A DNA stretch of 64,000 nucleotides from Heterobasidion occidentale (taxonomy: Eukaryota; Basidiomycota; Agaricomycetes; Russulales; Bondarzewiaceae): positions 1,116,001 through 1,180,000 of the forward strand of contig JBCAQO010000007.1 of assembly GCA_039111635.1 (NCBI GenBank), written 5' to 3'. Positions within the stretch are counted from its first letter, which is position 1. Every line of letters begins with the position of its first letter. Position numbers and translations under genes: made by a program. The notes below the pieces were generated by a model that searched no databases, was not told where the DNA came from, and worked only from the letters and a program-made list of their open reading frames with translations. This document shows, in pieces, positions 16,701 through 18,310 of this stretch.

Positions 16701-18310
16701 GAGAACTTACAACGGGCCTAGGCAAAGAAATCTATTATCTGTATGTGTGAAGGTGGACCAGCCACCAGCAGTGAGTAACACTTGACCGTTGCTCAACAAG
16801 CTTTTGTTTGACCAACGAACTGTCATCAGAAGAGAAGGAATGAATGCCTTTATAATTCAGAAACATTACTAAAACGAACCAGGTTTAGGATATGACGTTG
16901 ATCCCGAGCTATGGACGATAATTGGAATAGCTGGCGAGGAGTTGTGAAGGACATGCTGTCGGACCTCATCGGGTTTGATGGGCGAAGGGATGGCGCGAGG
17001 GTATAGAGCTCAGAAGCCTTGGATATGGCATCAATGGCGAAAGTGGGCACCGAACACTTGGCAGCTGCGTTTTGAGCAACTGTGGAGTAACCATGCTCGT
17101 GGATGAAGACAGAGACATGGCAAGTCGTCAATAGATGCGCGAGTGCGGCCTCCGAGTTCTGTATCCATTCATATAGACGATCAGAGCTGTTCAATACGAT
17201 AGAAAGAGGGAACCTACAGAAGGTGCCAGGAGGAAGACTGTTGCATTGAGTTGGAGCAATGCCATGACTATCGTGGCAAAGTAGAACCCGCTGTCGCCCA
17301 GCAGTGCGATTACAGGTGCTTCTGATGGAGACGCATATGCAGCGTCGGCCTGCCGAGATGTGACGATCGGCGAGAGTTGATGGTACAACTCGGATGCCTC
17401 ACGATGAACGGCTCTAGCGAAGTCCGCATAGCTGATATCGACGTAAGAAGGCTCCTGAAAAGGTGCCCTTCTCGGATCCGGATAAGTTGCAAAGATCCTC
17501 TGTCCAATGACTGGATCTGCAGCCTGTTTCATCAGAATCGTTGACAAGGTGGGCGTCAAAAAGGGAGAATGGGGCGTGAAGGAAAAGAAGTGATCGGATG
17601 TAGCCGCCACTGTGGAACGAGTGGCGTTAGGTAGAGGTGATGTGACTAGTCCGCCATCAACTCGAGGACGCGTATCTTGCAGCCAAGCATTGCCACGAAC
17701 AAACATGTCGCGATCTGGAAACTCCTCTACCGTCTTGCAGAGGAAACCTCCGGCCTCCAGCGTGTACGTTTTCCGAAGGACCTTTCTGCCATCGACGACC
17801 TGCGTACCAATGCTCAAGAGAGAATATTTGGGTGTACGACGAAGTTGGTCGAAGAGCTGGCTGACAAACGTCTTGTCATCTAGTACGAGATCCTTGCGCT
17901 CAAAAGAAGGGACGGTAACAGTGGACGTAGTCACACAAACGGTTCGTGAAGCGCATACAAGGTGCGCTTTACGTGTTTGTGTGATGAGTCCCTCACGGAG
18001 AGCGGGTTCAACATGAGCAGGCTCTGTTTTGAGGTATTCGTGTTCAATGGAGATCGCAGTCGCGAAAAAGGCGCTGTTATGAATTAATTAGTAGACATAT
18101 CCAGGCATGATGTTTTCTAGACTTACCTGAGAAGTCGAAGAAGAGCCAGATCACCCTGAGCTGCCAAGATTATCCTCTCGAGACCGGTGACATCCTCTGG
18201 GCAAGTGAGCTGGGAATGTATCTCGTTAGACACTCTGCTCGCAAGAAACCACGAATCCCGCTTACATGAACGCTAGTCGTGGAAGCATCGAAGGAGTCGA
18301 CGGCGAGCAT
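13770..18310 (-). CDS. UbiC-like domain fused to NRPS-like adenylation-thiolation-reductase (A-T-R)
   Basis: Large multidomain enzyme; 11 exons plus two restored bases total 1,324 codons. Residues about 1-200 resemble chorismate pyruvate-lyase (UbiC) folds: ERIILAAQGDLALLRLLSAF, then TRKAHLVCASRTVCVTTSTV, then RKTYTLEAGGFLCKTVEEF, with an Arg and a Glu where that family has catalytic residues. The same 856-nt exon (18073-17218) runs on into the adenylation domain. A-domain cores: VHSSGSTSYPKP, PLFHTMGL, VYGSSETG, a TGD-containing strand (NTGDVVQ), and KGNCIRPKVL for the A10 lysine. Carrier: LFDIGLDSITTQQLR. Reductase: VVAVVGAAGSLG (NADPH loop) and catalytic HGYSESKFVGEYL (YxxxK). The frame steps back one base near 16,990 and near 15,090. 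Likely converts a carboxylic acid to an aldehyde; substrate unknown. Confidence 0.85.

Follow-up and report, generated by a model that had tools for sequence, protein, structure and literature searches.

A chorismate-lyase-like domain joined in frame to an A-T-R reductase gene in Heterobasidion occidentale

Does the wood-rotting fungus Heterobasidion occidentale carry a gene in which a chorismate-lyase-like domain is joined to a carboxylic acid reductase, and what could such a protein do? The locus lies on the minus strand of a 64,000-nt stretch of DNA (contig JBCAQO010000007.1, positions 1,116,001 to 1,180,000), hereafter called the window. An earlier annotation, referred to here as the sequence-only reading, had placed at 17218..18310 a domain resembling the chorismate pyruvate-lyase UbiC in front of adenylation (A), carrier (T) and thioester reductase (R) domains (A-T-R). 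It had also hinted at a polypore host, which is not supported, Heterobasidion belonging to the Russulales. The coordinates, including those of an 856-nt exon, proved exact. The first three exons of the fused gene are:

18266..18310, minus strand: exon 1 of the fused gene (MLAVDSFDASTTSVH), with the ATG at 18310-18308, placed by splice sites and frame
18127..18209, minus strand: exon 2 of the fused gene (LTCPEDVTGLERIILAAQGDLALLRLL), N-terminal portion of the chorismate-lyase-like domain
17218..18073, minus strand: exon 3, exactly 856 nt, remainder of the chorismate-lyase-like domain, linker and start of the adenylation domain

Intron 1 spans 18265-18210, and the donor of exon 3 is GTAGGT. When spliced, exons 1-3 encode 328 residues free of stops, of which residues 1-180 form a single domain that is followed by a linker and then by the A domain. 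Within exon 3 the chorismate-lyase-like domain runs to about 17662. The linker (about 17652-17554) is disordered, with a predicted local distance difference test score (pLDDT) below 50 at residues 141-173 of the AlphaFold2 model. The splicing was inferred from the DNA sequence alone. Comparison by tblastn with P0044, a predicted protein of Desarmillaria ectypa, agrees with the claim that neither a stop nor an intron interrupts the junction: residues 41-307 of P0044 align with 18075-17218 as one block across it (46% identical), in which the gaps lie mostly in or after the linker and no stop or change of frame is seen. At exon 2, residues 8-35 of P0044 align at 66.7%, in a block that begins within intron 1. 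At the DNA level, the N-terminal domain and the A-T-R part are joined in one predicted gene.

The same architecture recurs in other fungi. A 1323-residue query was compared with 1016 candidates, the score being taken over residues 1-185 alone; two of the candidates, both from honey-mushroom relatives, carry the fusion as a single predicted protein. One is P0044 (1276 residues) and the other P0045 from Armillaria mellea (1230 residues); each is 53% identical to the query over residues 1-185 and holds AMP-binding, AMP-binding C, carrier and NAD-binding-4 domains (Pfam) behind the N-terminal domain. The junction is also spanned by P0020, a 247-residue open reading frame (ORF) on a public 3.1-kb contig, which is 91% identical over 51% of the query. 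The joined frame is known from two far-apart orders, Russulales and Agaricales. A search of the host genome (45 Mb, 159 contigs) brought up one fused gene; its remaining hits to the reductase portion are at most 39% identical. No full-length fused protein with a Heterobasidion name was among the matches of the fusion search, where a gene model of about 316-727 residues would lie between the length limits of the two protein searches.

One could still suspect two adjacent genes that merely appear fused, as the fusion is read from DNA alone and two apparent frame breaks further downstream (see below) show that the locus is either not error-free or not intact. Yet a single 856-nt exon covers both parts, and the same junction is seen in P0020 as well as in complete predicted proteins of two other species. 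This explanation is largely refuted, and we consider it extremely improbable.

Residues 1-180 of the window protein match 43 database proteins with expect values (E) down to 2.4e-50, and the N-terminal domain is therefore not a product of chance. A profile search in which 7998 candidates were scored yielded at least 349 proteins at E <=0.01. Among the matches listed, the organism-named relatives are Agaricomycetes, and the majority lack a functional name; P0028 and P0066 are called chorismate-pyruvate lyase by one source, and the UniRef name of P0111 begins "UbiC transcription regulator-a". The architecture is new, while its parts are all of known kinds and the superfamily label is already present in these three automatic names. 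In the host genome the domain also occurs as two stand-alone copies (L002 and L003), 43% identical to the query and close duplicates of each other. Compared with P0103 of Heterobasidion irregulare, 199 of 201 residues are the same in L002 and 197 in L003. The two copies lie about 48 kb apart on contig C8, inside a near-identical duplication of about 3.4 kb, and the flanking ORFs are duplicated too.

In the stand-alone paralogues, both introns match the first two of the fused gene in position and phase. The most parsimonious account is that an entire stand-alone gene, with its own start codon, was deprived of its stop codon and read through into an A-T-R gene. A single fusion event is suggested less by the trees than by the orthology of the entire A-T-R part. 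In a first tree (125 rows) the fused rows lay on one side of a branch only with respect to the host's own two stand-alone rows, which says little. A second, quick tree was made from 116 rows, with nine long rows omitted. Forcing the four fused rows together was not rejected there (p-AU 0.859 in the approximately unbiased test); the forced tree was in fact likelier than the free one, indicating that the free search was poor. Grouping the fused rows with P0085, P0089 and P0098 was not rejected either (p-AU 0.877), and the same applied to a group uniting the Heterobasidion stand-alone genes with P0020 and the window copy (p-AU 0.219).

Is the N-terminal domain of the chorismate lyase type? Structure comparison showed a UbiC/UTRA-like fold for both the model of P0030, a stand-alone relative from Grifola frondosa, and the model of window exon 3, in agreement with the sequence-only reading. 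Residues 17..167 of the P0030 model pair with UbiC 14..164 (VIA-align). Three positions correspond to Arg76, Gly114 and Glu155 (UbiC numbering), which we take to be site residues:

17971..17973, minus strand: Arg77 of TRKAHLVC, equivalent of UbiC Arg76, present in 121 of the 122 fungal rows, with a gap in the other
17860..17862, minus strand: Ser114 at the place of UbiC Gly114; of the 122 fungal rows, 120 have Gly here, one has a gap and the window alone has Ser
17725..17727, minus strand: Glu159, first Glu of VEEF, equivalent of UbiC Glu155, kept in 122 of 122 fungal rows

The 122-row set includes 119 of 127 proteins whole, with P0044 and P0045 trimmed to their first 190 residues; P0020, P0040, P0042, P0043, P0063 and P0076 were left out. 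The Arg and the Glu that had been singled out as catalytic are found at the expected places and are kept in essentially all rows. These equivalences are based on the register given by the structural range and by weak profile alignments. By hhalign, Arg77 was placed on the Arg of E. coli WLREILL (weak score) and, in global mode, Glu159 fell on a Glu of the PF01947 set (weak score), through which the Gly114 place was also assigned. Global alignment of the fungal set to UbiC was unsuccessful, and a 38-row alignment of the fungal proteins, compared by hhalign with the single E. coli UbiC sequence, gave nothing useful.

Profile searches were made with alignment A1, which comprises the window sequence and 35 of the 43 proteins matched by the single query. 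PF01947 (DUF98) was weakly matched by 16 of these 36 rows (best E 0.0014). It alone, and no UTRA model, was matched by several members; PF04345 (UbiC) was not among the six families matched by any row. NCBIfam gave one weak match for the 36 rows, a cyanobacterial chorismate lyase (E 0.064), amid senseless ones. A PDB sequence search with the fungal profile returned two chance matches only, and PF01947 had no match in the host genome.

Several results weigh against a working chorismate lyase. The nearest structure to both models is the DUF98 protein AF1396 (PDB 2nwi), and the domain is nearer this DUF98 (Rv2949c-like) branch than E. coli UbiC. UTRA-type chains equal UbiC in score for the P0030 model and exceed it for the window model. 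The window domain itself has no Pfam match up to E 10, including PF01947. From a bacterial set of 59 loci (30 PF01947, 29 UbiC), 24 and 25 passed the length filter; hhalign against 26 UbiC and 24 PF01947 sequences gave a fitting register at probabilities of 3.3% and 5.7%, which are not significant. The window copy has Ser in place of the site Gly114, departs from the family at further conserved positions, and shows the two apparent frame breaks in its A-T-R part.

Alternatively, the domain could be a non-catalytic, UTRA-like ligand-binding one that detects or binds an aromatic acid (or chorismate) and modulates or supplies the reductase. The UTRA scores, the UniRef name of P0111 and the missing Gly of the window copy would fit. 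However, the nearest structure is a DUF98 protein and not a UTRA domain, the only model that several members match is PF01947, and the Arg and Glu are kept in essentially all of the 122 fungal rows over which this pair was compared. We regard a purely ligand-binding role as unlikely. The UTRA domains of the GntR/HutC regulators DasR, PhnF and YvoA are alike in fold; they are the effector-binding parts of DNA-binding regulators, unlike the fused protein. DUF98 proteins share the fold and the site Arg and Glu, and the PF01947 members met here are bacterial and archaeal. E. coli UbiC shares the fold and all three site residues with most fungal rows, but is unfused and about 12% identical in the structural alignment.

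The remaining results concern the state of the window copy, for which the A-T-R part has to be considered as well:

16880..17158, minus strand: exon 4, adenylation domain to the A3 motif HSSGSTSYPKP, holding an apparent frame break at about 16995-16935
15944..16819, minus strand: adenylation domain exons 5-7 (16819-16711, 16649-16399, 16339-15944), placed by splice sites and P0044 matches
15098..15894, minus strand: C-terminal A subdomain and T (carrier) domain with FDIGLDS and its Ser near 15340, placed by the P0044 match and by Pfam PP-binding in the orthologues
13770..15074, minus strand: thioester reductase (R) domain with GAAGSLG and YSESK motifs, ending at the stop codon

With tblastn, P0044 matches the window copy in exon-like blocks that extend from exon 2 to 13779, and the A, T and R parts are all matched in order. 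The R domain is 57% identical to that of P0044, and PF07993 matches an ORF within it (14643-15140, E 5.7e-9). Relative to the orthologues, the frame appears to break within exon 4 and again between T and R (about 15098-15074), which makes the gene as a whole less tidy than the sequence-only reading assumed. The candidate introns that might account for the two breaks would remove residues that the orthologues encode. Assembly errors, unusual introns and decay are each possible.

Of 49 columns that are kept in at least 95% of the 122 rows, the window copy differs at 11, the most of any row; P0102 follows with 9, the median is 0, and both Armillaria-type fused domains also depart at none. P0020, outside this set, has Ser at the Gly114 place as well and has a long branch of 1.01 in common with the window copy. 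Together with the frame breaks, this could reflect a gene decaying in the host, such that the Armillaria-type fusion works while the window copy has become a pseudogene or no longer has a functional N-terminal domain. Such decay has an appreciable chance, if one below even, and is compatible with lyase activity elsewhere in the family. Against it, the splice sites, the carrier Ser, both R-domain motifs (GxxGxxG and YxxxK) and the Arg/Glu pair are all intact, and the breaks might stem from faults in the assembly or from unusual introns. P0020 has the same long ORF, so the frame at the junction was kept while residues changed. It is doubtful whether the window copy still works, and it may be altered or failing; activity is more to be expected of the Armillaria-type proteins.

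The changes in the window lineage, including Gly to Ser, could instead point to another chorismate-type reaction that yields 3-hydroxybenzoate or starts from isochorismate or a related acid, and no characterised relative is clear by sequence. The Armillaria-type domains, however, keep the conserved family residues, and a neighbouring VibO-like enzyme (see below) fits 4-hydroxyphenyl substrates. We find a different reaction quite improbable.

Weighing these points, we see about even chances that a working N-terminal domain is a chorismate lyase feeding aldehyde formation by the A-T-R part. For catalysis, substrate, product and pathway we infer the following scheme. A stand-alone chorismate-lyase-like gene, with start codon and both introns kept, would have been fused in frame to an A-T-R gene through a flexible linker. 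The N-terminal domain would most likely remove pyruvate from chorismate to give 4-hydroxybenzoate through the Arg/Glu pair of the UbiC site, the working form probably being best kept in Armillaria and Desarmillaria. The acid may leave first for prenylation. The A domain would activate such an aromatic acid, the T domain carry it and the R domain release the aldehyde, which neighbouring enzymes could then oxidise and rearrange. Those considered here are:

19576..20570, minus strand: GMC oxidoreductase of the aryl-alcohol-oxidase type (exons found so far; PF05199, PF00732)
22813..24843, plus strand: flavin adenine dinucleotide (FAD) monooxygenase close to VibO, the vibralactone oxepinone-forming enzyme (PF01494)
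26911..28263, minus strand: zinc alcohol dehydrogenase (PF08240, PF00107)

The GMC oxidoreductase lies about 1.3 kb upstream of the fused gene on the same strand, and the best solved relatives of its ORF at 20049-20570 are the aryl-alcohol oxidases 5oc1 and 3fim (E 1.5e-37). VibO (7yj0) is the best match of three ORFs, with E 1.8e-48, 1.7e-54 and 9.2e-124, as against 1.0e-8, 2.9e-14 and 6.9e-26 for the next solved relatives. A frame break in this gene was accounted for by an ordinary intron. These two neighbours appear to point to a pathway of the fomannoxin/vibralactone type, and one may guess that the zinc alcohol dehydrogenase belongs to it. There is no UbiA-type prenyltransferase in the window; 15 UbiA matches are found elsewhere in the host genome. 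In its own right, the monooxygenase is far nearer VibO than phenol hydroxylases and is a candidate fomannoxin-type enzyme.

Labelling of fomannoxin in Heterobasidion is said to have traced its ring to the loss of pyruvate from chorismate, and a 2016 report by Schwenk reportedly has, by its title, fomannoxin and vibralactone on a common pathway. Fomannoxin is a benzohydrofuran aldehyde made by Heterobasidion (PMC7076809). In the vibralactone pathway of Boreostereum vibrans (VibP1/2, BvCAR, BvARs, VibO, VibC), as in the window, a reductase and a VibO-type monooxygenase are found, acting there on compounds derived from 4-hydroxybenzoate. According to PMC10257657, VibO ring-expands 3-prenyl-4-hydroxybenzyl alcohol, which is formed from 4-hydroxybenzoate via a UbiA prenyltransferase, BvCAR and aldehyde reductases; the vibralactone genes are unlikely to be clustered, and the word "chorismate" is absent from the main text.

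The sequence-only reading had suggested that one protein, if active, could make a hydroxybenzoate-type acid from chorismate, load it and release an aldehyde. Fold, Arg/Glu pair, fusion and a neighbourhood suited to 4-hydroxybenzoate speak for this proposal, whereas a direct handover of the acid to the A domain is doubtful because BvCAR reduces 3-prenyl-4-hydroxybenzoate and not 4-hydroxybenzoate (PMC10257657). That the protein is a bifunctional fungal enzyme, which makes 4-hydroxybenzoate from chorismate, reduces the (prenylated) acid to the aldehyde and supplies the missing entry step of a fomannoxin-type pathway, is a tentative and somewhat doubtful proposal. The fungal A-T-R reductases NcCAR, PnlA, HerB and BvCAR have the same A, T, R order, and the portions of their descriptions consulted do not mention an N-terminal chorismate-lyase-like domain. 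Among the titles and abstract openings screened in the open-licence literature, neither such a domain in an A-T-R protein nor the Agaricomycetes family turned up.

What would a chorismate lyase mean here? The usual view is that fungi derive 4-hydroxybenzoate from tyrosine and not from chorismate, and to our knowledge no chorismate lyase has been assigned in fungi; if the proposed activity is real, this would be the first. UbiC is subject to product inhibition, which fusion of a lyase to a domain that takes up its product could relieve. One protein may thus make or sense an aromatic acid and convert such acids to aldehydes. If the reported labelling of fomannoxin holds, the fused gene and its stand-alone paralogues would be candidates for the pyruvate-loss step. 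The chorismate-lyase-like family of the Agaricomycetes presents a testable gap, and the fusion links it to a reductase and, in the window, to a VibO-type monooxygenase, giving a concrete predicted substrate.

Other genes in the window include a STE3-type pheromone receptor of the mating-type B kind at 59206-60030 (minus strand; PF02076, E 1.6e-39), about 41 kb from the fused gene, and a Vps36-like ESCRT-II subunit at 6054-6923 (minus strand; PF11605, E 3e-11). We also observed a SNF2-type helicase at 46620-48125 (minus strand) and a protein with three RRM stretches at 49901-51160 (plus strand).
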